This document shows positions 136-21,984 of a stretch of DNA of 64,000 nucleotides, piece after piece. The notes beneath the pieces are model-generated. The model was not told the origin of the DNA. It saw only the letters and a list, made by a program, of their open reading frames with translations, and did no database searches. Position numbers and translations under genes: made by a program. Position 1 is the first letter of the stretch. Each line of letters begins with the position of its first letter. This stretch comes from Fluviicola sp. Its GTDB lineage: Bacteria; Bacteroidota; Bacteroidia; Flavobacteriales_D; Crocinitomicaceae. The stretch is from assembly GCF_029266855.1 (NCBI RefSeq), contig NZ_JAQSWB010000011.1, positions 1 to 64,000 on the forward strand. The letters are read 5' to 3'.

Positions 136-1752
136 ATGAATCATTTACTGAAGAGCTTAACTAAATATGAGAAATGGGTTTTTCTCTTAATCGTCTTAGT
201 GAATCTTTTGCCCGTTTTCAGCTATCGATTTTTTCCTACTCTTGATGGACCTGCCCACCTTTACAATGCAAACCTGATAAATCAGTTGCTTTTTGCCCCT
301 CATTCCAATCTTGATTCCTTTCTTCAATTCAATTCCGAAGCGGTTCCGAATTGGACCGGGCATGCTTTGCTGTGTTTCTTCAAATGGTTTCTGCCCGGAT
401 ATTTAGCAGAAAAAATGGTGCTTATACTTTATTTTGTAGGATTACCTTATTCTTTTCGATATCTGGCCAAATCTATTAATCCTGAATATATTGGTCTAAG
501 CTACCTGATCTTTCCTTTTACATATAATTATCTTTTGGCATTGGGATTTTATAATTTTTCGTTCGGGCTAATCGGTTTACTTTTGATTCTTACCTATTGG
601 ATCAAAAATCATCAAACGATTGCAAGTTCAGTAAAGAAAATCCTAATCCTTAGTCTGTTTCTGACGGTAACCTATTTTTCGCATATTGTTATGTTTAGTA
701 TTGGGCTGTTAGCCGTTAGCTGCTATACATTTATTACTTTTCTGAAACAACTTTTTGAAACAAAAAACATCCGGGAAGCATTAATAAGTCATTTCAAAAA
801 AGCGCTCGTTTTACTAATAAGTTCTTTTATTCCCCTGGTCTTAATGATTCTTTACTTTACAAACAGACCTGATTCCGGTAATGCTGTTTTCCTGCCAAAA
901 GATGAATTGATCAAATGGATAAATTACTTAAACCCGGTCATTTGTTATAATGAAGAAGTGGAAAGTGCATTTACCAGGAAAGTCATTTACATATTGTATG
1001 CGCTGATTATTGGAGGAATTATCGTAAGAATAAGGAACAGGAAATCAGTGAATGAAATAAACGGAAAAAGTGGAATGCTTCGTTTAAATGACATCTGGTT
1101 ACTTATAACGGGAATCATGCTCCTCCTTTTGTTCATAATGCCGGATGAAAATGGAATGGCAAGTATTATCTCTATGAGATTCGGGTTGTTATTCTTTTTG
1201 TTTCTAATTATTTGGATTTCGAGTATGAAACAGATAAAATGGTTCGTTTTAGTCTGTTCGGCACTTTTATTAATTGTTCATTTCAAAAGAGTTCACTATC
1301 TCGATTCTATAATTGAAATACACAATAAAATTGCCATCAATTGTAATAAAGCTGAAAGGTTTATAAAGCCAAACAGTGTGATAGCTCCTGTAAACCTAAC
1401 AAATAATTGGTTTGTAGCACACTTCCCCAATTACCTTGGAATTGATAAGCCGATGGTTATTTTGGAAAACTACGAAGCAGCTATGAATTACTTTCCGTTG
1501 CTTTGGAAAACAAAAAGTCTTCCAAATCTTGAAATCGGAGGAGAATCCATTGCAGAATATTCATTATTCTCTTCAAATCCAACTAATTTAAAAAACGGAA
1601 AAAAGGAGGTTGACTATATCTTTGTCCTGGGGAAATGGGATAGTTTAAATGCGGATCATAACAACACACTGCGGATGATTTCGACCTCTTTTGTTCAGGC
1701 ATACAAGAATGAAAACTGTACCTTGTATAGACATAAGAAATTACAGGATTAA
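136..1752 (+). CDS. Polytopic membrane protein, possible GT-C-type glycosyltransferase
   Basis: This 538-aa protein has about ten strongly hydrophobic segments and a hydrophilic C-terminal domain of about 150 residues. An acidic motif in the first extracytoplasmic loop (LDGPAHLYN, about residues 36-44) recalls the Asp-containing loop of GT-C glycosyltransferases (ArnT/PMT fold), which transfer sugars from lipid-linked donors outside the cytoplasmic membrane. The family was not recognised beyond that resemblance, so the function is inference. It stands alone on the plus strand before the helicase gene. The first ATG gives a plausible short cytoplasmic N-terminus before the first helix. No signs of truncation. 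Confidence 0.7.
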   Translation: MNHLLKSLTKYEKWVFLLIVLVNLLPVFSYRFFPTLDGPAHLYNANLINQLLFAPHSNLDSFLQFNSEAVPNWTGHALLCFFKWFLPGYLAEKMVLILYFVGLPYSFRYLAKSINPEYIGLSYLIFPFTYNYLLALGFYNFSFGLIGLLLILTYWIKNHQTIASSVKKILILSLFLTVTYFSHIVMFSIGLLAVSCYTFITFLKQLFETKNIREALISHFKKALVLLISSFIPLVLMILYFTNRPDSGNAVFLPKDELIKWINYLNPVICYNEEVESAFTRKVIYILYALIIGGIIVRIRNRKSVNEINGKSGMLRLNDIWLLITGIMLLLLFIMPDENGMASIISMRFGLLFFLFLIIWISSMKQIKWFVLVCSALLLIVHFKRVHYLDSIIEIHNKIAINCNKAERFIKPNSVIAPVNLTNNWFVAHFPNYLGIDKPMVILENYEAAMNYFPLLWKTKSLPNLEIGGESIAEYSLFSSNPTNLKNGKKEVDYIFVLGKWDSLNADHNNTLRMISTSFVQAYKNENCTLYRHKKLQD

Positions 1753-1810: not shown

Positions 1811-4800
1811 ATGCTAAGTTCAGTTGAAATGGATGATGCCGATGAAGGCGAAGATTTATTTGTTTTTCGCGATTCTGCGTTCGCTGAACTGAATTATGGT
1901 ACCCTTTTAAAATTTGCAGAAGCTTCCGTCATTCAGGTATTGCATCTCAGTTCAAACTCCGTTCACGCTGTTGAACTTTCCATCAACAAGGGCATTTTTT
2001 TATGTAATTACGGATTTCGTGCAGAACACGAAGTGATCCTCACCCAGGAAAACCAACTAGTTGTTCTTGGCTGTAGTTGTGGCGGAAATGGAAAAAAACT
2101 GTGTGACCACCAGGCTATTGTACTTTACCGTGTAATGGAGTATCCTGACTTCCGTACCTTCTTTGATGCGTCCGATCGGAGAAAACGCATTTCAGAAACG
2201 GCGATTTCTTATGGAATTACCGAAGAAAGAAGATGGGATGAATTATTTCAGCTCACTTATGAGAACAAACGGGTAAAAGTTACTTCCAAAAATCCCGAAC
2301 TCATTCGCCTAAACCCGGAAAAAATAGAGGAGCTGACCAAGAGACTGGTTCCTGTTTCTTTTTCCCCTGAAAAATTGCACAAACCCTTACCCAACCGATA
2401 TATTTCTTTCAGTGCTTTTGCCAATGAGAATCACTTTGAATTTCAACTGCATGAAAGCGCGCTGACGCAAAATGGTAAGATAAAAGCTCCGATTCAATCC
2501 CTGAATGCTTTGGAACTTGCCCTCCAGGAAACGAAACCCGAAATGATCCAAGCGTATACAGCGCTCGGTATGTTGGGTGCGAAACATCATCTATACCGAA
2601 ACCTCACGAACGATGAAGAAACGTTCCTGAAAGTGGTAAAGTCCATCGGAATAGCCAAACCGCTCTTCGAAGAATTAGAGGTTATTGAGGTCTGGGACAC
2701 CAAGCCACCGAAAGACACGGACCTTACACTTCATATTCACGATAAACCGATGCTTTTGCATTTGGACGTCAGCCAAAACCAGGAGTTTTACGAAATTACC
2801 GGTTTCATTGAATTTGATAATTTGAAGATTCCCTTCGACCAGGTGAAGATGAAAAGCGAACTTTTTATTCGCCGCGGACAAGATCTTTACCTCATAAAAA
2901 ACTGGAACTACCTGAGGACTTTGAGTTACTTCAGAAAGAATCATCACAAACTCATTATCCATCAGTCGCAGTTCGATGAGTTCCAGGCAAGTTTTTTGGT
3001 TCCGCTTGAAAACGTAGTCAGTATTAATTACTCCTATGTAAAAAAGGCCAGCCGTGCAATCATCAAACAAACACAACTAGCAACTGTCCGGGCAAAACGC
3101 ATCTATCTAACAGACAGCGAAAACTATGTTCATATAACCCCGATTATCGAGTACGGGAAAGTGGAGGTACCAATTCTCTCCAAACGGAAATTACTCACGA
3201 TTGATCAAACCGGGAGCTCTTTCGAAATCCCCAGGGACGAGAACCTGGAAGTCAATTTTTTAGGACAAATTATACGCCTTCATAAAGATTTTGAGTATCA
3301 GCTTGGCGGTGATTTTTTCTATTTGCATAAAAGCCAGTTTTTAGAAAACGATTGGTTTTTAAATGCCTTTGAATCATGGAGTGAGGCCGAATTGGAAATT
3401 CATGGTTTCCAGGAACTGACCAAACTAAAATTGATTCCGAAGAGCATGAAAGTTTCCGTTCAGATCATCAGCGGAATTGATTGGTTTGAAACGAAAGCCC
3501 ACATCAAGGTTGGCGATAATCGCGTGCGGTTAAAAGAAATTCAGCGAAGCATCATTCAAAAATCGCGCTATGTGAAACTGGGCGATGGACAGATGGCATT
3601 GCTTCCGCAACAATGGCTCGAACGTTTCTCGGCCTTTTTCCAGGAAGGAGAATTAGTGGATGACGTGATCCGGATTCCGAAAACATCTTATCAATTCATT
3701 GATGAATGGTTCGATGCGGAAGAAGTTGACAGTTCTGTTCGCATGCAAATAGAAGACCTTAAGGATAAAATTACTCACTTTGAGCGCATTCCCGAAATTG
3801 AACTCCCACAGGAATTTCAAACCGAATTAAGACATTACCAGCGGGAAGGTTATCACTGGCTGCACTTTTTAAATGATTTTGGTTTTGGCGGAATCCTCGC
3901 CGACGATATGGGTCTTGGAAAAACCATTCAGCTTTTGGCCTACATTTCGAAAAAACAGGAAGTCAAAAGAGGAACACACCTGATTGTTGTTCCAACCTCC
4001 TTAGTCTTTAACTGGAAAGATGAAACCGCAAAATTCACTCCACACCTGCGGATCTTAGATCTGCACGGAAGCAAACGAATGAAATCGACCCAGCATTTTG
4101 AGGAGTATGATATTTTACTGAGCACTTACGGAACCCTGCTTTCAGATATCCGGTATCTGAAAGATTTTGTTTTTGACACGATCATTTTGGATGAAGGCCA
4201 GGCTATTAAGAACCCGGATTCCAAGCGCTATAAAACCGTTCGTCTGCTGCAGTCCAAACAGCGATTTGTCCTGACCGGAACTCCGATCGAAAACAATACA
4301 CTGGATATTTTCTCCATCCTATCTTTTTGTAATCCGGGAATGTTTGGCTCATTGAAGCAATTCAAAGACCATTTTGCGTTTCCGATTGATAAATTTCAGG
4401 ACAGTCAGCGGGCCAAAGAATTACAGCGCCGGATTCATCCTTTCCTATTGAGACGGACCAAGAAACAGGTCGCAACCGAACTTCCCGAGAAAACGGAAAT
4501 GGTTGTATACTGTGAAATGGATCACGAACAGCAGCGTGTTTACGACGTGTACAAAACCGAATTGAAGGAATACCTGATGAGTGAGCCCGATTTTCTGGAC
4601 GGCCAAAGCAGCATGCATGTACTGGCAGGACTTACCAAATTGCGCCAGATTTGTAATTCCCCGGCCCTGATCAACGAAAACGGTGTTTCTTACGGAGATC
4701 AGTCGGCCAAAATACAGGAATTGATGCAGCAAATCGAGGACAAAAAGAAACACCATAAAATCCTGGTGTTCTCTCAATTTGTAGGAATGCTGAAACTCAT

Positions 4801-5203
4801 TGAAAATGCATTGGAGGAGCGGAAGATACCTTATTCCCTGCTTACCGGTCAGACTAAAAAACGAAAAGAAGTCGTCAATGCCTTCCAGGAAGATGAGAAA
4901 ATCCGGGTCTTTTTGATCAGTTTGAAAGCCGGAGGAATGGGCTTGAATTTAACACAGGCAGATTACGTTTATTTGATCGACCCGTGGTGGAATCCAGCTG
5001 TTGAAAATCAGGCAATCGACCGCGCCTACCGTATCGGTCAGGACAAAAAAGTGGTTGCTGTTCGTTTCATTACGCCAAATACCATTGAAGAAAAAATACT
5101 GGAGCTGCAAAAACGCAAACAGGAATTGGTTGGTGATTTGGTACACACGGATGTGAGTACATTGAAACAATTGAACCGGAAAGAGTTGATCGATCTTTTG
5201 TGA
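1811..5203 (+). CDS. SWIM zinc-finger SNF2-family DEAD/DEAH helicase
   Basis: A 1130-aa Swi2/Snf2 ATPase of the bacterial RapA/HepA-like group. A SWIM zinc finger (C88-x-C90-x7-C98-x-H100) is near the N-terminus, followed by about 550 residues of poorly conserved sequence. The ATPase core follows: Walker A DDMGLGKT at 698-705, Walker B variant DEGQ at 794-797, motif III LTGTPIENN, then the helicase C lobe (about 985-1090) with SLKAGGMGLNLT and the arginine motif DRAYRIGQ. Such proteins translocate on double-stranded DNA and remodel protein-DNA or RNA polymerase complexes; the exact partner is unknown. Length and motif order fit the family. An in-frame ATG seven codons downstream is an alternative start. 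Confidence 0.93.
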   Translation: MLSSVEMDDADEGEDLFVFRDSAFAELNYGTLLKFAEASVIQVLHLSSNSVHAVELSINKGIFLCNYGFRAEHEVILTQENQLVVLGCSCGGNGKKLCDHQAIVLYRVMEYPDFRTFFDASDRRKRISETAISYGITEERRWDELFQLTYENKRVKVTSKNPELIRLNPEKIEELTKRLVPVSFSPEKLHKPLPNRYISFSAFANENHFEFQLHESALTQNGKIKAPIQSLNALELALQETKPEMIQAYTALGMLGAKHHLYRNLTNDEETFLKVVKSIGIAKPLFEELEVIEVWDTKPPKDTDLTLHIHDKPMLLHLDVSQNQEFYEITGFIEFDNLKIPFDQVKMKSELFIRRGQDLYLIKNWNYLRTLSYFRKNHHKLIIHQSQFDEFQASFLVPLENVVSINYSYVKKASRAIIKQTQLATVRAKRIYLTDSENYVHITPIIEYGKVEVPILSKRKLLTIDQTGSSFEIPRDENLEVNFLGQIIRLHKDFEYQLGGDFFYLHKSQFLENDWFLNAFESWSEAELEIHGFQELTKLKLIPKSMKVSVQIISGIDWFETKAHIKVGDNRVRLKEIQRSIIQKSRYVKLGDGQMALLPQQWLERFSAFFQEGELVDDVIRIPKTSYQFIDEWFDAEEVDSSVRMQIEDLKDKITHFERIPEIELPQEFQTELRHYQREGYHWLHFLNDFGFGGILADDMGLGKTIQLLAYISKKQEVKRGTHLIVVPTSLVFNWKDETAKFTPHLRILDLHGSKRMKSTQHFEEYDILLSTYGTLLSDIRYLKDFVFDTIILDEGQAIKNPDSKRYKTVRLLQSKQRFVLTGTPIENNTLDIFSILSFCNPGMFGSLKQFKDHFAFPIDKFQDSQRAKELQRRIHPFLLRRTKKQVATELPEKTEMVVYCEMDHEQQRVYDVYKTELKEYLMSEPDFLDGQSSMHVLAGLTKLRQICNSPALINENGVSYGDQSAKIQELMQQIEDKKKHHKILVFSQFVGMLKLIENALEERKIPYSLLTGQTKKRKEVVNAFQEDEKIRVFLISLKAGGMGLNLTQADYVYLIDPWWNPAVENQAIDRAYRIGQDKKVVAVRFITPNTIEEKILELQKRKQELVGDLVHTDVSTLKQLNRKELIDLL

Positions 5204-5427
5204 TTTGAAGTAAAGGCCTCATAATCAAATAACTGCCCGAAAATTGTAAACCATTTTATTAACTTGCTGACAAAAAATGGTATATATCATTGATTTTCAA
5301 CAAATTAACCCAAAGTTGTAAACCATTTTATTAAATCGTTCACAAGGCAAATTTATCCCATAATCGGGAAACCTGTATTCAATTTGTTAAATCAGGAAAA
5401 AGCAGATTTATTCTAAGCGTTTGTTCG
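5204..5427. repeat. Intergenic stretch with 19-bp direct repeat
   Basis: TTGTAAACCATTTTATTAA occurs exactly at 5244-5262 and 5316-5334 (72-bp spacing), and similarity extends weakly downstream in both copies (ending ..CTGACAA and ..TTCACAA). The two copies lie upstream of the small gene at 5440 and downstream of the helicase. They may be binding sites or a decayed duplication; no gene is visible. Confidence 0.7.
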
Positions 5428-5435
5428 TACTTTTG
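5428..5435 (+). promoter_or_regulatory. Minus-7 box TACTTTTG, 4 nt before ATG
   Basis: The box matches the Bacteroidota minus-7 consensus TAnnTTTG and is separated from the ATG at 5440 by only GAGC, so transcription would start at or beside the start codon. No clear minus-33 TTG is seen at the usual distance. Confidence 0.55.
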
Positions 5436-5439
5436 GAGC

Positions 5440-5667
5440 ATGAAAAAAGGTTTGTTCTTACTTGCAATCACATTCATTGTTGTTGATTTTGCCTTTGGAC
5501 AAGGTTGTTCCCAGTGCAAATTGTTGGCTCAGCAAGGAAGTGAATTAGATGAAAACTCTTTTGGTTCTTCTATCAATACGGGGATTTTGTTCCTGATTGC
5601 GATTCCTTACTTAATTCTCATGTTTTTCTTCCGCAAGCAAATTGCCCGTTTATTTAAACGCAAATAG
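5440..5667 (+). CDS. Small secreted-then-membrane-anchored protein, unknown
   Basis: A 75-aa protein with an N-terminal signal peptide ending near DFAFGQ, a short extracytoplasmic segment containing a CSQC pair (about residues 23-26), and a single C-terminal transmembrane helix (about 48-67) followed by a basic tail. This topology is common among small envelope proteins in Flavobacteriia, but no function is known to me. The CxxC-like cysteines might be redox active or bind metal; that is speculation. The start is supported by the promoter box just ahead. It converges with nadD, leaving a gap of only 2 nt. Confidence 0.75.
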   Translation: MKKGLFLLAITFIVVDFAFGQGCSQCKLLAQQGSELDENSFGSSINTGILFLIAIPYLILMFFFRKQIARLFKRK

Positions 5668-5669
5668 GC

Positions 5670-6284
5670 TTAACGGTAAAAATTCATTTCATCAATATAC
5701 TTGCGCACCGGATCTGTGAGCAGGTAACGTACATCTTTTCCTTCTTTAATGGCATGCCGTACAAAACTCGATGATACTTTCATTACCGGGGCATCTTCGC
5801 AGGTAATGATATTCGCGTGATCCTTAAATCCGTTTTCCGGATAATGCCCGATCTCCTGAACTTCTTCTTCCTCCTGGAGAGTCAATACACGCGGGTAAAC
5901 ATAGAATTTGTAATTTGCCAGCAAATGTTCGTGGTTATACCATTTGTGGAACGTTCTCAAATTATCTTCTCCCATAATCAAAGAGAATTCATGGGCCGGA
6001 TATTTTTCCTTTAAATGGGCCAGGGTTGTGGCAGTATAATTAGGCTGCGGTAACTTGAACTCGATATCGGAAGCTTTCAGGTTGGTATTATCCTGAATTG
6101 CTTCGTTTACAATTGCCAAGCGATGGTAATCCGGCAACAAAGAAGATTTAAGTTTCAATGGATTTTGTGGAGTGACTACCAGCCAAACCTGGTCGATATC
6201 TGTGTATTCCGCCATGTAATTGGCAATGACCAAATGTCCGACATGAATGGGATTAAACGTTCCGAAATAGAGTCCTACTTTCAT
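5670..6284 (-). CDS. nadD: Nicotinate-nucleotide adenylyltransferase
   Basis: NadD transfers AMP from ATP to nicotinate mononucleotide, giving deamido-NAD in NAD biosynthesis. The 204-aa protein opens with the nucleotidyltransferase motif GTFNPIHVGH (residues 8-17), the GxFxPxHxGH signature, and has the second phosphate-binding motif VSSSFVR near the C-terminus (the ISSTxxR site), followed by the usual P-V-x-x-Y-I ending. Length is normal. It is the last gene of yicC-gmk-nadD, with 3 nt between it and gmk, so it is almost certainly co-transcribed. Together with kmo and kynU in this window it points to NAD formation in this organism. Confidence 0.95.
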   Translation of the reverse strand: MKVGLYFGTFNPIHVGHLVIANYMAEYTDIDQVWLVVTPQNPLKLKSSLLPDYHRLAIVNEAIQDNTNLKASDIEFKLPQPNYTATTLAHLKEKYPAHEFSLIMGEDNLRTFHKWYNHEHLLANYKFYVYPRVLTLQEEEEVQEIGHYPENGFKDHANIITCEDAPVMKVSSSFVRHAIKEGKDVRYLLTDPVRKYIDEMNFYR

Positions 6285-6287
6285 AAA

Positions 6288-6866
6288 TCAGGAAATAAAT
6301 TTTCGAACGATTTCTTTTGCTTCAATACAAGCTCTCCTCAAATCATCATTCAGGAGAATATAATCAAACTCGGGAGCGCGATCCAACTCAATGTGTGCTT
6401 TTGCCAGCCGCATGGAAATCTTTTCCTCTGTCTCCGTACTTCTGAAGCGCAAGCGTTGTTCGAGATCCTCAAAGGACGGTGGCTGAACAAAAACTGCAAG
6501 CGCGTTGTCACCCATGATTTTTTTCAGGTTCAATCCTCCAACTACATCCACATCAAAGATCACTGTTTTTCCATTGGCCCAAATTCGTTCCAATTCCGAG
6601 GCCAGTGTTCCGTAAAAATTATCTGTGTAAACTTCTTCCCATTCAATAAACTCACCACCATCTATTTTCTGTTTGAATCCTTCGATTCCCAGAAAATAAT
6701 AATGCTTTCCATGTTCCTCATCCCCTCTCGGTTCGCGGCTGCAGGCAGAAATGGAAAAAGCCAGTTCAGGAATTTCGCCTAACAAGTATTGAACAATGGT
6801 AGTTTTACCGGCACCTGAAGGCGCCGAGAAAATGACACATTTACCGCCACTCGAATCAAATGCCAT
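6288..6866 (-). CDS. gmk: Guanylate kinase
   Basis: Guanylate kinase phosphorylates GMP (and dGMP) to the diphosphate with ATP. The 192-aa protein has the P-loop APSGAGKTT at residues 15-23, the GMP-binding region SREPRGDEEHGKHYYF (the family's T/SR-x-R-x-G-E-x-x-G-x-x-Y/F-F), and the VDVVGGLNLKK element that matches the family's D-V-Q-G segment. Normal length. It starts 1 nt after the yicC stop and ends 3 nt before nadD, so it is translated from the same mRNA. The order yicC-gmk is frequent in bacteria. Confidence 0.96.
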   Translation of the reverse strand: MAFDSSGGKCVIFSAPSGAGKTTIVQYLLGEIPELAFSISACSREPRGDEEHGKHYYFLGIEGFKQKIDGGEFIEWEEVYTDNFYGTLASELERIWANGKTVIFDVDVVGGLNLKKIMGDNALAVFVQPPSFEDLEQRLRFRSTETEEKISMRLAKAHIELDRAPEFDYILLNDDLRRACIEAKEIVRKFIS

Positions 6867-6867
6867 T

Positions 6868-7734
6868 TTACAGGGTATTTAAAACTTGTTCTTTGATTTT
6901 CTCCAGGTGATCTTTCATTTCAACCACCAGTTTCTGCATCTCCACATGGTACGATTTGCTTCCAAGTGTATTGATCTCACGACCAATTTCCTGCGTAATG
7001 AAACCAAGTTTCTTTCCACAGAGCGGAATATTCATCGTTTCAAGGAAGTAATTCAAGTGATTGGAAAGACGCATCTTCTCTTCAGAGACATCCATTTTTT
7101 CGATATAGAAAATGATCTCCTGCTCCAAACGATTCAGATCTATCGAGATATTCGTGATCTTCTCCAAACCTGTTTTCATGCGCTCGCGAACTGCGTCAAT
7201 GCGTGCAGTTTCATATTTTGGAACTTCAGCCAGCAATTCGTCGATCCGCTGGATATTGTTTTCAAAATCCTTTCTTAACTGATCGCCTTCTTGCTTACGG
7301 AACTCGTTCAAATGATTACATGCTTCTCTTACCAAACTTTGCACAAAGGTCGATTCTTCATCGGAAAGTGCTTCTTTATCGTTGGAGTAAATCTCCGGCA
7401 TTCTCATAACCAGGGATAAAATATCATCTGTTGGTTCTCCCAGTAATTCAGCAGTTTCCTTGATATCTTTATAATACGCCTGAGCCAAATCGCGGTTAAT
7501 CACATAATTCTTTGTATCACCGGAATTCTCAAGGGAAATAGATAATTCTACTTTACCCCTGTCTAGTAATTCAGCAACTATTGAGCGATTCTCCAATTCG
7601 ATTTCACGATACAAGGGAATTGCACGCATATTCAGATCTAAGCTCTTACTGTTTAAGGAACGGATTTCCACAACGATTTTCTTCCCCTGGAAGGAACCGC
7701 TTGCTTTTCCGTAGCCGGTCATTGATAATACCAT
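6868..7734 (-). CDS. yicC: YicC/YloC-family endoribonuclease-like protein
   Basis: The 288-aa protein begins MVLSMTGYGKASG, matching the highly conserved YicC N-terminus (SMTGYG/SMTAFGR), and ends with the conserved E-x-x-x-K-x-x-x-Q-x-LN-type helix. E. coli YicC is an RNA-degrading enzyme; the same activity here is inference. The start was placed at the ATG at 7734 rather than an upstream in-frame TTG, because homologues start here and a TACTTTTG box (7757-7750) ends 15 nt upstream. First gene of an operon with gmk and nadD. Confidence 0.92.
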   Translation of the reverse strand: MVLSMTGYGKASGSFQGKKIVVEIRSLNSKSLDLNMRAIPLYREIELENRSIVAELLDRGKVELSISLENSGDTKNYVINRDLAQAYYKDIKETAELLGEPTDDILSLVMRMPEIYSNDKEALSDEESTFVQSLVREACNHLNEFRKQEGDQLRKDFENNIQRIDELLAEVPKYETARIDAVRERMKTGLEKITNISIDLNRLEQEIIFYIEKMDVSEEKMRLSNHLNYFLETMNIPLCGKKLGFITQEIGREINTLGSKSYHVEMQKLVVEMKDHLEKIKEQVLNTL

Positions 7735-7749
7735 TTGCTTCAGTTTGAG

Positions 7750-7757
7750 CAAAAGTA
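7750..7757 (-). promoter_or_regulatory. Minus-7 box TACTTTTG for yicC-gmk-nadD
   Basis: Read on the minus strand, TACTTTTG ends 15 nt before the yicC ATG, a normal spacing for a short leader. It matches TAnnTTTG exactly. No good minus-33 element is visible. Confidence 0.5.
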
Positions 7758-8054
7758 AGGAAATATTGTCGAGAAGGTGTTAATTAGATTCTCATAGAAT
7801 ACTAATTTAAGCACATAGAGCATATCGAAATAGAGAGAAGAAACTACTAATCAGATCATTCCTCTCACAGATTGGAGTTGAGATAGAGCTTGCTTTTATT
7901 TACTTGTATTGAGAAGCCCAATACAGATTACCTATGAACATACTATGTGAGCTATGTTGCTATATGGTTTACGATTAATTACGGGGAAGACCCTTATATT
8001 TTTCCAATATAAGCCCCGCAATTACTCACGGGACTTATTGGAAACGATATGCAG
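7758..8054 (-). other. recA-yicC intergenic region with alternative hairpins
   Basis: About 300 bp without a gene. On the minus strand, downstream of recA, three segments can pair in two exclusive ways: 8039-8029 with 8018-8006 (AATAAG/CTTATT plus CCCG/CGGG), or 8013-8006 with 8000-7993 (CTTATATT/AATATAAG) extended by CGGGG/CCCCG (7982-7986 with 8014-8018). No T run follows either, so a simple intrinsic terminator is not obvious. The rest (7758-7980) shows nothing I can assign. Confidence 0.45.
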
Positions 8055-9086
8055 TTAGTCCTGTGCCAACACCACTGCAGTGGGATTAGCTCCAAGAGCA
8101 TCCTTGATCTTTGCTTCTAATTCATCCATTAATTCCGGATTATCAGCAATCATATTTTTTACCGAATCTCTTCCTTGTCCTAAACGAGTTTCTCCGTAAG
8201 AGAACCAAGATCCGCTTTTCTTTAAGATATTTAATTCCACACCCAAATCAATGATCTCACCTACTTTGGAAATTCCTTCCCCGTACATGATATCAAACTC
8301 TGCTTTACGGAATGGAGGTGCAACTTTGTTTTTCACTACTTTCACTTTGATGCGGTTACCAATCACATCTTCGCCTTCTTTAATTTGGGCTGCTCTACGA
8401 ATATCAATACGCATAGAAGCATAGAATTTCAAGGCATTTCCACCGGTTGTTGTTTCCGGGTTACCGAACATCACCCCGATTTTATCACGCAGCTGGTTAA
8501 TGAAAATACAACAGCATTTTGCTTTACTAATCGAACCGGTCAGTTTACGAAGTGCTTTCGACATCAATCGAGCCTGTAATCCCATTTGAGAATCACCCAT
8601 CTCGCCTTCGATCTCCGCTTTCGGTGTCAGTGCCGCAACAGAGTCAATAACCAACAAATCAACAGCCCCGGAGCGAATCAAACTGTCGGCAATTTCCAAT
8701 GCCTGTTCTCCGTTATCCGGTTGTGAGATCAATAGGTTCTCAACGTCAACCCCCAATTTTTGTGCGTAAAACTGATCAAATGCGTGCTCCGCATCAATGA
8801 TAGCTGCAATTCCTCCTTGTTTTTGTACTTCCGCAATTGCATGAATTGCCAAAGTCGTTTTTCCGGATGACTCCGGTCCATAAATTTCAACGATTCTTCC
8901 TTTTGGATAACCGTTTACACCTAATGCCAGGTCTAATGTAATTGAACCGGAAGGAATTACCTCTACTTCTTCAATTGCATTGTCTCCTAATTTCATTACA
9001 GATCCTTTTCCGAAAGTCTTATCCAACTTTTCCATTGTTAGCTGAAGTGCTTTCAATTTTTCCGGGTTAACTTCTTTAACTGCCAT
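8055..9086 (-). CDS. recA: Recombinase RecA
   Basis: RecA forms ATP-dependent filaments on single-stranded DNA, drives strand exchange and stimulates autocleavage of LexA-type repressors. The 343-aa protein has Walker A GPESSGKT, Walker [11 protein letters not shown], the MAW-type motif [12 protein letters not shown] region and the disordered acidic C-terminus, with normal length. A TACATTTG minus-7 box lies 36 nt before the ATG at 9086, with an inverted repeat AGTAG-N8-CTACT immediately upstream of it, a possible operator. It is transcribed alone or read through from bcp. Confidence 0.98.
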
Positions 9087-16271: not shown

Positions 16272-17243
16272 ATGGAACTAACTACTTCACAGTGGCTTAT
16301 TGCCTCCTTCGCGCTGCTATGCGTTACAAGTCATTCTTATTCTCAAACAAATTCACTTCCCGCTTCCGGTAATGTCGGAATCGGAACTACTTCACCAGCA
16401 GAAAAACTAACAGTCAACGGCTCTGCGAGAATTGATTCAACTTTAACTGTAAAAGATTCCATGATCGTTGACAGGGATGCTCACATCCGGAGTGACCTGC
16501 AAGTTGATGGAAAAACCATTCTGGGAGGAGATTTGTTTCTTAAATCACTTCGGGACTCTACAATTTCTGACGGTGGTGTGCTGCTGATCGATTCTATGGG
16601 GAAGGTTAAAAATGGCGGAGATCTGAAAAGTCTTGTTTATTCAGAGCTTGCTCTTCCTCCCTGCAAGGACGATGCAGGTGGAAATATCACTCCAGCTTTA
16701 CCTGTTTGGCTAAATGGACCAGGAAAATTGTATACCTCTTCTGCTTGCGTACCGGATGTAAGGGTCGGGATAGGCCAGAACAACCCAGATTCCAAATTAC
16801 ACATTACAACGGCGGTCAATAGAACCACACATCCGATCATCGTTGATAAACGCATTCAGGGAAATCCGATACCCTATAAATTAATGGAACTGGACAATAC
16901 CGGTTTACTTTATGCCCGTGAGGTAAAAGTGAACCTGGATTCCTGGCCGGATTACGTTTTTGATGAAGGATACCAGTTGATGCCATTGAGTGAATTACAA
17001 GCATTTATCCGCGATAACAACCATTTACCCAATGTTCCGAGTGCCTGTGAAATGGAAGAACAAGGTATTAACGTGGCAAAAAGCAATGTGATGCTGATGG
17101 AAAAGGTAGAAGAACTTACCCTCTATATGCTTCAGATCAATGAAAAGGTGAATATTCAGGAGAAATTACTGCAACAGCAGCAGGAAACCATCCGACTGCA
17201 GCAGGAATTGATCCAACAATTGAAAGAACAGGTAAAACCCTAG
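16272..17243 (+). CDS. Secreted fibre-like protein with GIGTTSP motif and C-terminal coiled coil
   Basis: A 323-aa protein with a signal peptide (cleavage near SYSQ, residue 25). It has two repeats of a trimeric-fibre motif, GNVGIGTTSPAEKLTVNG (33-50) and RVGIGQNNPDSKLHI (164-178), separated by beta-helix-like DSxL repeats. The C-terminal part (about 220-323) contains a conserved LPNVPSACEMEEQGINVA segment and a Gln-rich coiled coil. Such proteins are frequent in Bacteroidota and resemble tail-fibre/peptidase S74-adjacent proteins, but no S74 chaperone domain is visible. It is 2 nt ahead of the T9SS hydrolase gene, so the two are co-transcribed; a surface adhesin or stalk role is inference. 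Confidence 0.78.
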   Translation: MELTTSQWLIASFALLCVTSHSYSQTNSLPASGNVGIGTTSPAEKLTVNGSARIDSTLTVKDSMIVDRDAHIRSDLQVDGKTILGGDLFLKSLRDSTISDGGVLLIDSMGKVKNGGDLKSLVYSELALPPCKDDAGGNITPALPVWLNGPGKLYTSSACVPDVRVGIGQNNPDSKLHITTAVNRTTHPIIVDKRIQGNPIPYKLMELDNTGLLYAREVKVNLDSWPDYVFDEGYQLMPLSELQAFIRDNNHLPNVPSACEMEEQGINVAKSNVMLMEKVEELTLYMLQINEKVNIQEKLLQQQQETIRLQQELIQQLKEQVKP

Positions 17244-17245
17244 TC

Positions 17246-20152
17246 ATGAGAAAATTCATAACAGGATTGTTTCTGCTCATAGGTTTAAATGGGTGGGGAC
17301 AGGTGGACACCTTGGAATTCACCACCCGACGTGAAGTTGCAGACACCTTATTTGGCTTACTGAATCCTAATATATATGGAGGAGCATTACTTGACCGATC
17401 TTTAACAGAAGATTCTTTATTAAATATGCAACTTTTAGGAGACTATTCCGGTGCCGCTACTGCCTGGAGTTGGTTACAGGCATATTCGGATATTGCGGTT
17501 TCCTATGCAGATCCTACATATCTGTTTACGGATAGTGCTTTGTATCATAAACTGGAAGTGTTTCAATTGGATGCCAGTGCCGTAAATAACGATCAACTGA
17601 TTCAACCATTTGGCTTATTACTGCACAATATGAGTAGAATAGATTCGGCTTTATTTTCAATTCCCAATGTGTTTAGTAACCAGCAAAGCCAATTGAAATT
17701 AAGTGAAACGTACAATGAATCTGAGGTCTATTCTAAAGTTTTATTAAAGAGCGCAGCATTACTTGAATTATATGGTGAACACGGTTATGATGAAGGAACT
17801 ATTGTTTATGATCCACAATTTATTTCTACTAGTCCGGACATTTCAGTACTTTCCATTCAGTTAAATATGGGGAACGGTTTTCAGAAATTCTCTGTAGTTA
17901 ACAACACGATTAAATACCCAATTATTTCGGATTGGCAACTTGGCCAGGCTGCTATTAATTACACTATTGATAGTGTTTTAAAGCAAGATACACTCTCGTT
18001 TTATGTCTCTACCGTGACTTATAAATACAAAAATCAGGAGAAAAGTGCGGAGAGATGGGATACGGGAGTTCAGGAATATCCTCAAAGCGGAGAAAAACAA
18101 TTAGAATATTGTATTAAGTTCGGTTGTGGAAACGGTCGAAAAATTAAACGCCCTGTTATTATTGCTCCACCGTATAGACCGATTTCACAAATTGTAGGTT
18201 TTAATACTTACTACGATCAGTTTGATTTCAAGTCCTTGATTTCGTCTCTATCTGAAATGGGATACGATGTCATTTTTATTAAAGAGACACCTGGTAACCG
18301 GGGAATCAACCATGCAGGTGGCATCTTAGCAAATTTTCTCAAGTTTATCAATCAACAGAAAAAAGACAATTATCCGAATGAAGATTGGGAGAATGTAGTA
18401 ATCGGTTTTAGTGCGGGTGGTCAGCATTGGCGTTATGCCCTGAAAAAACTGGAAAAAGAACACATGGAGCAGAATCTGCCTCATCATCATACCCGTTTGT
18501 ACATTCCTTACGATTCCCCGCATTGGGGAGCAAATGTCCCCATGTTTGCACAAGCTGTATTTAAAGATATGTCGGCATTCAGCTTCCCGGCCTTTTTAAC
18601 CTACGAGAGTTTAAAAGATGCTGCTTCAAAGGATATGTTGATGAACCATATTCTGGGAAGCAATATTTCAAGCAGTGGGCATAACCGGGTAATTACACCT
18701 GCACCCACTTCCGAATCTCAGAATATTGCCAATCTGCTAAACAACTCTTTTAATCATCAATATACCCCAATGAATGATCTACGCAAAAGTTTTCCAACAT
18801 TTACACGTAATGTGGCCATTTCAACAGGAAGTAACTCGTTAGATTATAATTCGGCTTATGGTTTATATCCAGCAATGAAATTGTTCAAACAGGAGATAAT
18901 GATTCCTGCCTGGTACGGCGGAAGAACGATTAACCGCAGTGTCTATGCTTCCAAATACGGATCGGGCTGGCCTATCTTCGAACGAAAGGATTTGTATATA
19001 TTTTTAGGAATTCCCATCGGGATCCAGCGCAATTACAAAACAAACAATGCCTATGAATGGGATCTGGCGCAAGGAGGTTATAAGGATGAATTCTATGATA
19101 AAGGAGGAATGGGTCTTGGCGCTCTCCAGTATACAGGAGTGCCGGTAGGAGCAGTGACCATATTACTTGGTTCAGCACAATCTGTGATTGCCCCCTTGGG
19201 CCAGTTGGCAGGTACACAGTATTATAAAAACCACATGAATTTTTTGCCAACGGTATCTGCGTTGGGAATTAACCCTGCTATCTGGCAAAACAATAATTTG
19301 TATTATAACTTGAAAGATGAGGGGTTGATGTTTAATCAATTCAATTATGATCCTAATATCCCATCAAATACTTATGGGTATCCAAACCTAGCAAATCCTA
19401 GTGGTCATTTTAATGTTACTCCTTTTGAGGCTTTGTATTGCGATCATCAAACTTACCAACATATTAAGATGCAACAGTCAGTAGACGATGACCAATTGGA
19501 CGATGTCTATTTGGTATATACTCGCAATTTTATTTTGGATGAGGCGGAAGCTGATGTGGTTTACCTCCAAAATAAAGTGATCGGAAAAAATCATATTCAG
19601 TGGAATCATAATTATCGCTATAAGGCCTGGTACAAAGCCTACCAGGATATTGTAGTGGGAGCTAATGTAAGCCCGAAAACAGATTCGGGGCCATATACTA
19701 TTGAAAGCACAGGAGAAATCACCCTATATGCCTGCCATGAAATTAATCTCAAACCGGGGTTCAGTTCTGCAAACGGCAGCAAATTTCATGGTTTTATCCG
19801 CTGTGATGGCTGCTATCGACCCCATGGAAAAAGTAATTCTGAAAATTCAGACAGCAATCCTGGAAGTGCAGAAAATGCAGAGCAATTGAATTTGATTCAA
19901 CGGTCTTTATCTGAAACAGAAGGTGAAAAAGAATTGCAGGTATTTCCCAATCCAACAACTGATCAGTTTACCATTGTCTTTCCACGAGCTGGAGGTAAAT
20001 ATCTCATTGCAGATATTAATGGCCAGGTCTTTAAACACGAAGAAGTTGGAGAAGAGAACAAAACCATTTACATTAGATTACCCAAAGGGGTATATTTCTT
20101 GAAATGGATTGAACAAGAAAAAATTACCACTAAAAAAATAATCGTGTTATGA
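17246..20152 (+). CDS. T9SS-secreted alpha/beta hydrolase with 3-coathanger-stack-like domain
   Basis: A 968-aa secreted protein. Signal peptide residues 1-19; an alpha/beta-hydrolase-like region (about 300-520) with nucleophile elbow G387-F-S389-A-G391 and a downstream YDSPHWGA segment (D423-A429) resembling the SPHxGA turn of lipases; a domain around 815-855 with ESTGEITLYACHEINLKPGFS, the pattern of 3-coathanger stack domains; and a type A sorting domain in the last 75 residues (FPNPTTDQF ... KGVYFLKW ... KKIIVL). It should be exported by T9SS and fixed to the cell surface or released. Lipase or esterase activity is inference from S389; acid and base residues were not identified. It overlaps the next lipoprotein gene by ATGA. 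Confidence 0.85.
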   Translation: MRKFITGLFLLIGLNGWGQVDTLEFTTRREVADTLFGLLNPNIYGGALLDRSLTEDSLLNMQLLGDYSGAATAWSWLQAYSDIAVSYADPTYLFTDSALYHKLEVFQLDASAVNNDQLIQPFGLLLHNMSRIDSALFSIPNVFSNQQSQLKLSETYNESEVYSKVLLKSAALLELYGEHGYDEGTIVYDPQFISTSPDISVLSIQLNMGNGFQKFSVVNNTIKYPIISDWQLGQAAINYTIDSVLKQDTLSFYVSTVTYKYKNQEKSAERWDTGVQEYPQSGEKQLEYCIKFGCGNGRKIKRPVIIAPPYRPISQIVGFNTYYDQFDFKSLISSLSEMGYDVIFIKETPGNRGINHAGGILANFLKFINQQKKDNYPNEDWENVVIGFSAGGQHWRYALKKLEKEHMEQNLPHHHTRLYIPYDSPHWGANVPMFAQAVFKDMSAFSFPAFLTYESLKDAASKDMLMNHILGSNISSSGHNRVITPAPTSESQNIANLLNNSFNHQYTPMNDLRKSFPTFTRNVAISTGSNSLDYNSAYGLYPAMKLFKQEIMIPAWYGGRTINRSVYASKYGSGWPIFERKDLYIFLGIPIGIQRNYKTNNAYEWDLAQGGYKDEFYDKGGMGLGALQYTGVPVGAVTILLGSAQSVIAPLGQLAGTQYYKNHMNFLPTVSALGINPAIWQNNNLYYNLKDEGLMFNQFNYDPNIPSNTYGYPNLANPSGHFNVTPFEALYCDHQTYQHIKMQQSVDDDQLDDVYLVYTRNFILDEAEADVVYLQNKVIGKNHIQWNHNYRYKAWYKAYQDIVVGANVSPKTDSGPYTIESTGEITLYACHEINLKPGFSSANGSKFHGFIRCDGCYRPHGKSNSENSDSNPGSAENAEQLNLIQRSLSETEGEKELQVFPNPTTDQFTIVFPRAGGKYLIADINGQVFKHEEVGEENKTIYIRLPKGVYFLKWIEQEKITTKKIIVL

Positions 20153-20772
20153 GAATACTAGTGATGATTCTATTCGGTAGTTTACTTCTTTCCTCTTGTG
20201 GAAAAAAACGCACCATTTATATTACCGCTACTAACCCGGTTACAAACCAGCCTTATGCGGGTTTGGAGTATCGCATTGTTTCTTCAGTTTCTGGAGCGGA
20301 AGATGGTGAAGGAACTAAAACGGTTGCTTCAGGAAACTTGGATGCGAATGGTGAAGCCGTTGTGGAATTACGAGAGAAACGCAGGAGGAGATACGTTGTA
20401 CGCGTTTTTGAACCGCCTAATACTTGTTACAATAAATCCATTAATATGTTTTTTGGCAGCCCCTCTGATGAAAATGGGCATTTTAATTTTGAGTTTGCGG
20501 AATGTGCATCTCTTCAAAGAAAAGTTAAAAACACGAGTTGTTTTGATACAAATGATAAAATTGAAATTTATATCGACAATACTGTTCATTCATTGCTTTC
20601 GACTCCTTGGACTCTGAATGGTTGTGCGGATTATACAACTGTCCCTTCTCAAGTACCAATAGGACATTATACTCTTCATTGGATTGTAACAAAGAATAAT
20701 ATTTCAACAGATTATTATGATTCATTTGATCTTGTTGAAAATGAAACCAAGTTCCATGAAATTAATTATTAA
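20149..20772 (+). CDS. Lipoprotein, copy 1 of a tandem paralogous family
   Basis: A 207-aa lipoprotein: MRILVMILFGSLLLSSC with lipid cysteine 17. The N-terminal half has an Ig/carboxypeptidase-regulatory-like pattern (NQPYAGLEYR, LDANGEAVVEL), then VRVFEPPNTCYN and SPSDENGHFNFEF. The C-terminal part (about 120-207) is variable but keeps several cysteines and a closing W-x-V-T-K-N motif. The start codon overlaps the hydrolase stop (ATGA), so the lipoprotein is translationally coupled to the hydrolase. No known family recognised; a protective (immunity-like) or anchoring partner of the hydrolase is a hypothesis. Confidence 0.82.
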   Translation: MRILVMILFGSLLLSSCGKKRTIYITATNPVTNQPYAGLEYRIVSSVSGAEDGEGTKTVASGNLDANGEAVVELREKRRRRYVVRVFEPPNTCYNKSINMFFGSPSDENGHFNFEFAECASLQRKVKNTSCFDTNDKIEIYIDNTVHSLLSTPWTLNGCADYTTVPSQVPIGHYTLHWIVTKNNISTDYYDSFDLVENETKFHEINY

Positions 20773-20776
20773 CTAG

Positions 20777-21181
20777 AAAAATCGGAGAAGGTATGCCGTA
20801 CGAGTAGTGGAACCTGCTAATACCTGTTATAATAAGATGATCACCATGTTTTTTAACAGCCCGTCTGATGAAAATGGGCATTTTAATTTTGAATTTGTAG
20901 AATGCGCTTATTTGAAATTTAGGTATAATAATTTGTCCTGTCAAGGGACATCAGATCACATTGAAGTAACCAGAGTTACAAATTTGTCAGGTTATTCAGG
21001 TTTTAGTAATCCTGCCATTTACGATGGTTGTACGGATTATACAATGCCAGATTTTGTACAAGTTCCAATGGGTAATTGGTATTTCACTTGGAATGTAACT
21101 AAGAATGGTATAACAAATTCATACGCCGACACTGTCTTTTTAGCTGCTGGAGAATATAAATATTACGAGTTCAATTATTGA
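20777..21181 (+). pseudogene. 5'-truncated paralogue of the tandem lipoprotein (copy 2)
   Basis: Starting directly after an in-frame TAG at 20774-20776, the frame reads KNRRRYAVRVVEPANTCYN and continues to a stop at 21181. It aligns with residues 77-207 of copy 1 and shares its SPSDENGHFNFEF stretch nearly base for base, but signal peptide, lipobox and the first half are missing. Only 4 nt lie between the copy 1 stop and the homologous region. A GTG at 20807 could start a 124-aa cytoplasmic product, but no ribosome site is evident. Most likely a deletion remnant; a silent C-terminal cassette or a functional cytoplasmic form cannot be excluded. Confidence 0.7.
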
Positions 21182-21363
21182 TTTCCTTATGGAGAACTTA
21201 TTGAGACTAATATCTATTTTCTTCTTTTGAAGATTACATCATTTAATTAGCGAAAATCAGTACTTGATTGAGTTAAATGCTCAATAAAACTGAATTATAC
21301 AAGTACGGAAAATCGCAACTCATTTTTGAGTACAATTACTCATTTTTGTATAAATTAGTTACG
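21182..21363 (+). promoter_or_regulatory. Leader region of copy 3 with short repeats
   Basis: ACTCATTTTTG occurs at 21318-21328 and 21338-21348 (20-bp period), and 21318-21331 is a small dyad ACTCA-TTTT-TGAGT. These lie 16-46 nt ahead of the copy 3 ATG and may form its promoter or operator; no exact TAnnTTTG box was found. Confidence 0.3.
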
Positions 21364-21984
21364 ATGAAACTACTATTTATATTGCTATTCGGAACCATCC
21401 TTCTTTCCTCTTGCGGAAAAGAGCGCAGTATCCACATTAAAGCAATCAATGCAGCTACAGGGCAGCCTTATGCGGGACTGGAATACCGTGTTGCTTCCTC
21501 ACGCACTGCGTCTAATGGAGAAAAATACCGCACCGAAGCAAGCGGGGTTCTGGATGCCAACGGTGAAGCAGTGGTTACTCTCAAACAAAAAAAGGGCAGA
21601 ACTTACAGTGTAAGGGTTGTGGAGCCGGCAAATACCTGCTACAATAAAGAAATCACACAATATTTTGACAGTCCTTATGATGTGGATGGAACCTTTACAT
21701 TTGAATTTGCCCCATGTGCATACTTGAAATTACATGTTCATAACATAAATTGTATTGATAATAATGACGAGATAAAATTTCGGAGACTATGGATTAGTGG
21801 TGGTGAAACAAATGATTTTCTCGTACAAACTGGATGTTTCCAATATGATGGGGATTATTTTTCTTTACCCGCGGGAAATTATAAATACGAATGGCAAGTT
21901 ACAAAAAATGGAGTTACTAACAATTATGAATCATCATTTCAATTGAATGAAAACCAATATTTTGATTTTAACTTAGATTATTAA
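21364..21984 (+). CDS. Lipoprotein, copy 3 of the tandem paralogous family
   Basis: A 206-aa lipoprotein, MKLLFILLFGTILLSSC with lipid cysteine 17. The start is set here because it aligns with copy 1; an upstream ATG at 21277 would add 29 residues before the signal peptide. The first 120 residues parallel copy 1 (QPYAGLEYRV, LDANGEAVV, VRVVEPANTCYN, FEFAPCA); the last 85 diverge strongly but keep W-x-VTKNG. Conserved front and variable tail suggest a shared scaffold with changing specificity. It may have its own promoter, being 182 bp past copy 2. Confidence 0.82.
   Translation: MKLLFILLFGTILLSSCGKERSIHIKAINAATGQPYAGLEYRVASSRTASNGEKYRTEASGVLDANGEAVVTLKQKKGRTYSVRVVEPANTCYNKEITQYFDSPYDVDGTFTFEFAPCAYLKLHVHNINCIDNNDEIKFRRLWISGGETNDFLVQTGCFQYDGDYFSLPAGNYKYEWQVTKNGVTNNYESSFQLNENQYFDFNLDY

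Follow-up and report, generated by a model that had tools for sequence, protein, structure and literature searches.

Why should the gene for a secreted hydrolase be followed by several copies of a lipoprotein gene that are alike in one half and different in the other? The question is raised by a locus in a 64,000-nucleotide stretch of DNA from Fluviicola sp. (contig NZ_JAQSWB010000011.1, positions 1 to 64,000; hereafter, the window), in which a gene for a secreted fibre-like protein (F) precedes a gene for an alpha/beta hydrolase (H) and three genes of one lipoprotein family (the L family; L1, L2 and L3 in the window). We consider that the locus is an effector–immunity module, predicted to consist of a lipid-ester hydrolase exported by the type IX secretion system (T9SS) and of lipoprotein inhibitors with exchangeable key halves. 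To this reading, which rests on comparisons of sequences, we give a probability of about 0.6. The underlying observation is real and is larger than was first noted. Below, genomes of relatives carry G codes (e.g., G102) and their loci carry L codes of three digits (e.g., L118).

A hydrolase gene followed by lipoprotein genes

A preliminary description of the window had listed a 968-residue hydrolase with a GFSAG motif at S389 and a T9SS sorting domain, an ATGA in which its stop overlaps the start of the first lipoprotein gene, a 5′-truncated second copy without a signal peptide, a complete third copy, and a fibre-like gene at the front. All of these are present (Table 1). The sorting domain is recognized by two family models (PF18962 and TIGR04183), the ATGA lies at 20149, the homology of L2 picks up again in frame just behind the stop of L1, and the lipoprotein start of L3 lies by homology at 21364, for which the open reading frame (ORF) caller had 21277. 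A search of the window genome with L1 (E up to 1) returned the places of L1, L2 and L3 only, and the L profile gave four matches at E≤1e-8, with L1–L3 being three among the matches listed. H is a single-copy gene in this genome; 17 further places match only its T9SS tail, which suggests that the genome has a T9SS, a major protein export route of Bacteroidota.

Is the order of these genes a matter of chance? Profiles of L and H were built by iteration on the fetched loci and the window, and of the L places among the matches listed in the family and order searches, only part was fetched and read. In the relatives, we counted 39 usable H genes, whose 3′ end is intact and is followed by 600 nt or more of sequence, leaving out the hydrolases of L148, L149 and L165–L168 and dropping beforehand a duplicate H (L108 at 16854, identical to L109 at 2354) and an orphan end (L109 at 5827). 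The usual order is F-H-L: an L gene lies directly behind H (−64 to 0 nt) in 37 of the 39, and F lies directly in front of 30 of the 31 H genes with an intact 5′ end. The order in the window is therefore not due to chance. The preliminary description had proposed asking whether the lipoprotein always adjoins the hydrolase and varies in copy number; adjacency is the rule with two exceptions (L120 and L221), and copy number does vary, with up to eight complete L genes behind one H (L082). In Brumimicrobium oceani, three F-H-L modules stand in a row on one contig (L108/L109), each H with an L behind it. Outside the 39, Tenacibaculum sp. MAR_2009_124 (L148 8971-12913) has F and an H that is 38% identical to that of the window, with no L-family lipoprotein beside them; the Solitalea locus L168 has two H genes, neither with an L; and in L166, a 235-residue ORF that the L profile did not find occupies the position of L. 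In L099, an unrelated T9SS protein of 679 residues (4298-6337, minus strand) stands in the place of H, between F (7281-8420) and three L genes (2145-4248); it resembles H only in the coathanger-like end and the tail, and is possibly another enzyme served by the same partners.

Of the 150 genomes in the family sample, 43 contain L (E≤0.01) and 32 contain H (E≤0.001); H was found in 32 of 240 family genomes at E≤1e-8, and L in 107 of the 399 genomes of the order sample at the same threshold. The full H profile matched 353 of these 399 genomes, many of the order matches listed being T9SS tails or only part of the hydrolase region, and 30 genomes had a match below 1e-80. Proteins of approximately 1200-1700 residues in the order (G163, G071, G089, G305 and others) have a segment in common with the hydrolase region of H, often around residues 290-540. 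Named carriers include Brumimicrobium oceani, B. salinarum, B. aurantiacum, Lishizhenia metagenome-assembled genomes (MAGs) and Tenacibaculum sp. MAR_2009_124. Two records that carry module loci, CP034120.1 (L152, titled Glaciecola amylolytica) and CALPSU020000303.1 (L158, titled Chryseobacterium gleum), have species labels that look wrong.

A scan of 395 genomes of the class gave H matches in 29, and 16 distant stretches were read, 15 from 14 of those 29 genomes and one from G399. An L-family protein (E≤0.05) is near H in five of the 16, behind it in L257, L258 and L268, between F and H in L267, and in front of H in L265; another lipoprotein-like ORF is next to H in L259, L263, L264 and L266. 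F is found in eight of the stretches (L256-L260 and L267-L269), of which L256 has F-H without L.

What kind of enzyme might H be? The window H itself falls below the cut-off for DUF676 (E 0.17). Among the 24 H proteins of an alignment designated A3, six match DUF676 and three match PGAP1 at E≤0.1, the LCAT model is matched by H relatives more weakly than these two, and a distant relative (L259) lies above the gathering scores of both PGAP1 and DUF676. Few parts of H are as well conserved as the hydrolase region when 29 H proteins are aligned (alignment A1), the variation being in loops and linkers; a hypervariable loop, residues 697-710, sits between the motifs GLMF and GYPNL and ends 11 residues before H721. 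In the distant H of L257, the only one tried, the loop could not be placed. The N-terminus resembles a signal peptide by eye, and 23 of the 24 A3 members have a T9SS type A sorting domain. A search of solved structures with 12 H sequences gave matches in the C-terminal tail region only. F has a GNVGIGTTSP-type repeat, an end that looks by eye like a coiled coil, and no T9SS tail; it had no Pfam match at E≤1 and no NCBIfam match at E≤0.1.

Table 1. Features of the F-H-L locus, in positions of the window
Feature	Position	Strand	Basis or remark
F, secreted fibre-like protein, 323 aa	16272..17243	+	ORF list; opens the module
H, secreted alpha/beta hydrolase of the DUF676/PGAP1/LCAT kind, 968 aa	17246..20152	+	Profile matches, alignment
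Codon of S389 (GFSAG), likely nucleophile	18410..18412	+	Column invariant among 29 aligned H
Hypervariable loop of H, residues 697-710 (NQFNYDPNIPSNTY)	19334..19375	+	Its type tends to go with that of the C-half of the neighbouring L
Codon of H721, likely catalytic His (putative role)	19406..19408	+	Invariant in A3 (24), nearly so in A1 (29)
3-coathanger stack domain of H, residues 818-852	19697..19801	+	NF045639, 26 bits against a cut-off of 26
T9SS type A sorting domain of H, residues 899-967	19940..20146	+	PF18962 E 9e-11; TIGR04183 E 3e-10
L1, complete lipoprotein, lipid Cys17; predicted cognate immunity protein	20149..20772	+	Lipobox, C-half typing
Variable C-half of L1	20506..20769	+	Type of the H-adjacent L of G102 (71%) and of an L of G118 array L090 (83%)
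L2, 5′-truncated copy, no signal peptide (by eye)	20777..21181	+	Frame opens behind in-frame TAG; first listed start GTG 20807
C-half of L2	20909..21178	+	82% identity with the C-half of the L next to H in G059, an H with a different loop
L3, complete lipoprotein	21364..21984	+	C-half from ~21721; type common to two L of G118 array L090 (68-69%)

The arrays also contain incomplete genes. Pieces of the 3′ end of H, each followed by an L gene, lie between L genes in L108 (6140-6727), L109 (5827-6561), L107 (6002-6589) and L092 (288-479), and the L112 array closes with such a piece, which has no L behind it. The series of cassettes is clearest in a Bacteroidales MAG (L165 2956-11329) with two H genes, the second of which is followed by an L gene, an H end of 501 residues, another L gene, and then by tail, L, tail, L and tail, the three tails being ever shorter. 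According to the preliminary description, lipoproteins found widely without the hydrolase would refute an immunity role. Formally, they are so found: for 66 of the 157 L genes with a C-half (38 loci), the fetched stretch contains no H, a count that is an upper bound, as some stretches stop at contig ends. This does not discriminate between the readings, because orphan immunity genes would look the same. Eight arrays end in a stub that comprises only the N-half (L082 10854-10994, L100 3805-3999, L101 6768-6989, L102 8145-8312, L104 1387-1590, L118 2213-2452, L123 7692-7853 and L132 8890-9042), as if arrays grew or shrank by recombination at a fixed side. There are 11 N-only fragments in all, the three others (L093, L107 and L119) being elsewhere or part of a broken gene.

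Two halves of the lipoproteins and a loop of the hydrolase

How do the lipoproteins of one array differ? The statement in the preliminary description that they share their first 120 residues and diverge behind these holds for L1 and L3, whose identity is 60% for the N-half and 31% for the C-half, and it extends to the relatives. Among 175 within-array pairs, 58 have an N-half with at least 85% and a C-half with less than 50% amino acid identity (medians 94% for the mature N-half vs 31%). The median DNA identities in these 58 pairs are 0.55 for the signal peptide, 0.89 for the N-half and 0.47 for the C-half, and in the five pairs that were profiled, DNA identity falls at residue 120. Between genomes (9192 pairs), the N-halves are alike and the identity of the C-halves falls at least 20 points below theirs in 251 pairs. 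The reverse is found in 81 pairs, in which the C-half is at least 50% identical and at least 20 points above the N-half, with an extreme of 0.80 vs 0.30. The L genes have thus had a two-part history, and C-halves have been exchanged between genomes. Grouping at 55% identity sorted the 157 C-halves into 77 types, including 49 singletons and 23 that occur in at least two genomes, and types recur across genomes on unlike N-halves. In 22 of 37 arrays, all C-half types differ. Among the 121 L genes that do not adjoin an H, the C-half type is one found next to H in another genome in 41 cases, and in 12 cases it is that of their own locus.

The N-half is probably a carboxypeptidase-regulatory/transthyretin-like sandwich. 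Nine of 41 L proteins match the carboxypeptidase-regulatory family PF13620 at E≤0.1 (best 4.7e-8), and matches to solved structures are weak, being fimbrial/Cna-B-like and transthyretin-like (best E 0.011), with transthyretin lying over profile positions 27-103, that is, in the N-half. PADLOC gave one weak match for L1 (SduA, E 0.026).

Similarity between H proteins was compared with similarity between the adjacent L proteins by Mantel correlation; r was 0.85 with the N-half and 0.44 with the C-half in 27 pairs, and 0.81 and 0.51, respectively, in 36 pairs. This close tracking of H by the N-half, together with adjacency in 37 of 39 cases through reading frames that overlap or touch, would be expected if L were a dedicated periplasmic chaperone or foldase, akin to the lipase-specific foldases, that assists the folding or solubility of H before its export. 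We regard this as unlikely. As many as eight complete L genes with unrelated C-halves lie behind one H, C-half types are exchanged between species, many L genes have no H in the fetched stretch, and H without a detected L also occurs. It is because of the arrays and of the exchange of C-halves that we rank a chaperone role behind an effector–immunity module.

If L proteins are immunity proteins, which part of H might the exchangeable half recognize? A scan of H in windows of 60 residues (27 pairs) pointed to 661-750, the region that contains the hypervariable loop. L118 and L083 have a common loop and C-halves with an identity of 0.83, yet the rest of H is 35% identical; H of L082 is 81% identical to that of L118, but has a different loop and a different C-half. 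Raw coefficients of correlation between the loop and the C-half, the N-half and the rest of H were 0.45, 0.41 and 0.47, respectively, across 36 pairs. When the rest of H is controlled for, the values are 0.275 (p 0.0002) for the C-half and 0.057 (p 0.20) for the N-half. Among 172 windows of 18 residues, 691-708, which overlaps the loop, ranks first, with a partial correlation of 0.284 with the C-half and 0.045 with the N-half of L. Of nine pairs of loci that share a C-half type on divergent H proteins, five are more alike in the loop than nearly all of the H-matched pairs (0/63, 0/68, 0/76, 1/68 and 1/63). In 19 of 22 arrays, agreement with the loop pattern is closer for the first L than it is on average for the other L proteins. 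A quartet test of single H residues gave two type-like positions vs one control position, and in six further single-residue comparisons, only L086/L092 (63 vs 51, 35 and 41) was clearly above the controls. We take the co-variation as evidence of moderate strength that the C-half of the adjacent L contacts H near its active site.

Several points weigh against an effector–immunity reading that includes such a contact. First, the loop was spotted by eye in the alignment before testing, so that the tests are partly post hoc, and since the scan of 240 family genomes provided no hold-out genomes, the result rests on the 36 pairs of its own discovery. Second, the co-variation is borderline after correction: the max-T p for 691-708 over the 172 windows is 0.046, changing to 0.055 with the N-half as an extra covariate and to 0.041 with close pairs left out; for type-sharing pairs alone, the corrected p is 0.026, 0.058 or 0.10, depending on the type threshold. 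Third, the loop is not alone, as window 801-818 is second and nearly as high (0.281) or higher, ranking first with the N-half as a covariate, and with close pairs removed, the first rank goes to 731-748. If the rest of H is not controlled for, moreover, the loop tracks the N-half about as well as the C-half. Fourth, of the nine type-sharing pairs, two are intermediate (7/55 and 58/436) and two have unlike loops (L104/L082, 0.19; L114/L105, 0.16), and like loops with unlike C-halves also occur (L083/L102, loop 0.64, C-half 0.30). Over the full length of H, type-sharing loci did not in general have more single residues in common than the controls did. Finally, some H genes have no detected L (L120, L221, L148, L168, L256 and most distant relatives).

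Might the co-variation then be a by-product of linked exchange of DNA, the 3′ part of H moving as one block with the neighbouring L gene, without any contact between loop and C-half? H and L do adjoin each other, regions with high-scoring windows (671-748 and 801-818) fall within the 3′ third of H, and the corrected signal is borderline. The clearest pair argues otherwise, in that L083 and L118 share the loop region (0.71 in H 660-750) and the C-half, but not what lies between them (0.41 in 750-860, 0.25 in the tail and 0.38 in the N-half of L), and we consider linked exchange improbable. Very improbable, in our estimate, is a role of L as a resistant version of the target of H, carried beside the weapon. 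Such an arrangement has been reported for some Bacteroidales antimicrobial proteins, and a variable lipoprotein that adjoins a putative secreted weapon resembles it; several L genes per H and the matching of loop and C-half suit a bound inhibitor better.

The proposed module and the position of the lipoproteins in the cell

How might an effector–immunity module of this kind work? H would act as a lipid-ester hydrolase that crosses the periplasm and is exported by the T9SS, and the L proteins would be envelope lipoproteins that bind H and hold it inactive, the first L being the cognate inhibitor. The constant N-half would serve as a carrier that goes with the local H, and the variable C-half as a key that fits the hypervariable loop beside the active site. 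Further L genes may form a library of keys against the loops of hydrolases of other strains. Recombination would renew this library by placing foreign C-halves onto the local N-half, with H-end fragments and half genes left over, and F may have a role in delivery. In this fuller form, the module would be a lock-and-key device of kin recognition, in which a T9SS-exported lipase with a hypervariable loop (the lock) by the active site is met by a recombining array of lipoproteins with a shared carrier, whose key halves of approximately 90 residues are swapped; we hold this form only tentatively, at a little below an even chance. The more general suggestion, made in the preliminary description, that effector–immunity logic applies to a T9SS enzyme gains much support from adjacency, variable copy number, L arrays without H, H-end cassettes, the exchange of C-halves and the co-variation of loop and C-half, despite the lipoproteins that occur without the hydrolase.

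Where would H and L meet? For Capnocytophaga, a minimal signal for surface export of a lipoprotein with two acidic residues has been described, and the signals proposed for Bacteroides and Flavobacterium are also acidic, in the passages of PMC5080379 cited here. Among 140 lipobox matches in L (a loose pattern, with a few matches misplaced or in fragments), zero, one and two acidic residues at positions +2 to +6 of the lipid Cys were found in 88, 51 and 1, respectively. Because 139 of the 140 have at most one, the acidic signal is lacking in them, by a rule that is uncalibrated for this family (SusD, sought as a calibrator, was not found in 10 of 10 genomes), and L probably faces the periplasm. 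This position fits an inhibitor that encounters H during export, or a foreign H during entry. It also raises a difficulty for the effector–immunity reading: a foreign H would have to reach the periplasm, and no route is known.

Could L instead be a surface partner of H, an anchor or adaptor, with a variable C-half that binds outside targets such as receptors or glycans and with an array that offers a choice of targets? The variable half is indeed swapped and the constant half tracks H, envelope proteins of Bacteroidota often have carboxypeptidase-regulatory-like domains, and F could belong to such a complex. Against this, the loop co-varies with the C-half, and not with the N-half, when the rest of H is taken into account; nor do the residues behind the lipid Cys, on the uncalibrated rule above, or the L arrays without H favour a surface complex. 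We judge a surface partner about as unlikely as a chaperone.

If L proteins are indeed exchangeable inhibitors of H, some T9SS cargo that is now filed as digestive enzymes would be weapons, and the L array would be a readable record of the enemy enzymes that a strain has met. Immunity against the enzymes of other strains would be gained by swapping approximately 90 residues, so that the specificity of immunity would be modular within a single protein. Because the predicted contact is that of one short loop with one 90-residue half, specificity is directly testable with natural variants of H and L.

Comparison with known systems

Is there a described system of this form? In the titles and abstract openings of the listed open-licence papers on T9SS together with immunity proteins, lipoproteins, polymorphic toxins or antibacterial toxins, we found no T9SS lipase effector with lipoprotein immunity, which does not prove absence; if correct, our reading adds an effector–immunity form for a T9SS cargo that we have found described nowhere. 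Orphan toxin–immunity cassettes are a feature of polymorphic toxin systems (PMC3482391), and Rhs and CDI are among the systems of this kind. The module has in common with them an immunity-like gene immediately behind the putative toxin gene, copies in tandem, orphan cassettes that join a toxin end to an immunity gene, and exchange between strains. The orphan cassettes have their counterpart in the H-end pieces before L genes in L107, L108, L109, L092 and L165. In contrast to these systems, no whole toxin domain is exchanged here, H being one conserved enzyme with a hypervariable loop, and it is half of the immunity-like gene that is exchanged. Orphan immunity and acquired interbacterial defence in gut Bacteroidales are similar in that immunity genes are kept without the matching effector (PMC12247911 and PMC10470768); there, the effectors are those of the type VI secretion system (T6SS), whereas here, one lipoprotein family with a constant half is involved.

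The nearest case with a T9SS link is that of the TANFOR toxins, which likewise occur in Bacteroidota with an immunity gene downstream. As far as the cited parts of PMC7073777 go, these are carriers with C-terminal toxins such as nucleases, and their neighbours are enriched in T9SS substrates. Here, the enzyme itself has the T9SS tail. H had no match to a TANFOR domain in Pfam or NCBIfam (whether either library holds a TANFOR model was not checked), and neither "lipase" nor "lipoprotein" occurs as a word beginning in the main text of that paper.

The nearest functional model, by analogy, is that of the T6SS lipases with lipoprotein immunity. In both cases, a putative or known lipid-ester hydrolase has one or more lipoprotein genes beside it, as seen here in the gene order, the lipoboxes and the arrays, and an outer membrane lipoprotein would be placed to meet a periplasmic lipase. 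Multiple copies are also found there: in the passages available from the cited sources, Tle1 is accompanied by Tli1a and Tli1b, the second copy being a proposed pseudogene (PMC13133936), and Tle5b has three Tli5b genes (PMC9846239, PMC13133936). In the part of PMC13133936 that treats Tle1-Tli1a, the modelled inhibition leaves the catalytic pocket uncovered, so that a contact near the active site is not a given. The systems differ in three respects. First, the window H has a T9SS tail, and no T6SS part was present among the Pfam matches of the window H and the A3 members. Second, the L proteins lack the DUF3304 and Sel1-like repeats named for Tli, both being absent from the 21 Pfam families matched at E≤0.1 by the 41 L proteins scanned. 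Third, each L protein is made up of a constant carrier half and an exchangeable half.

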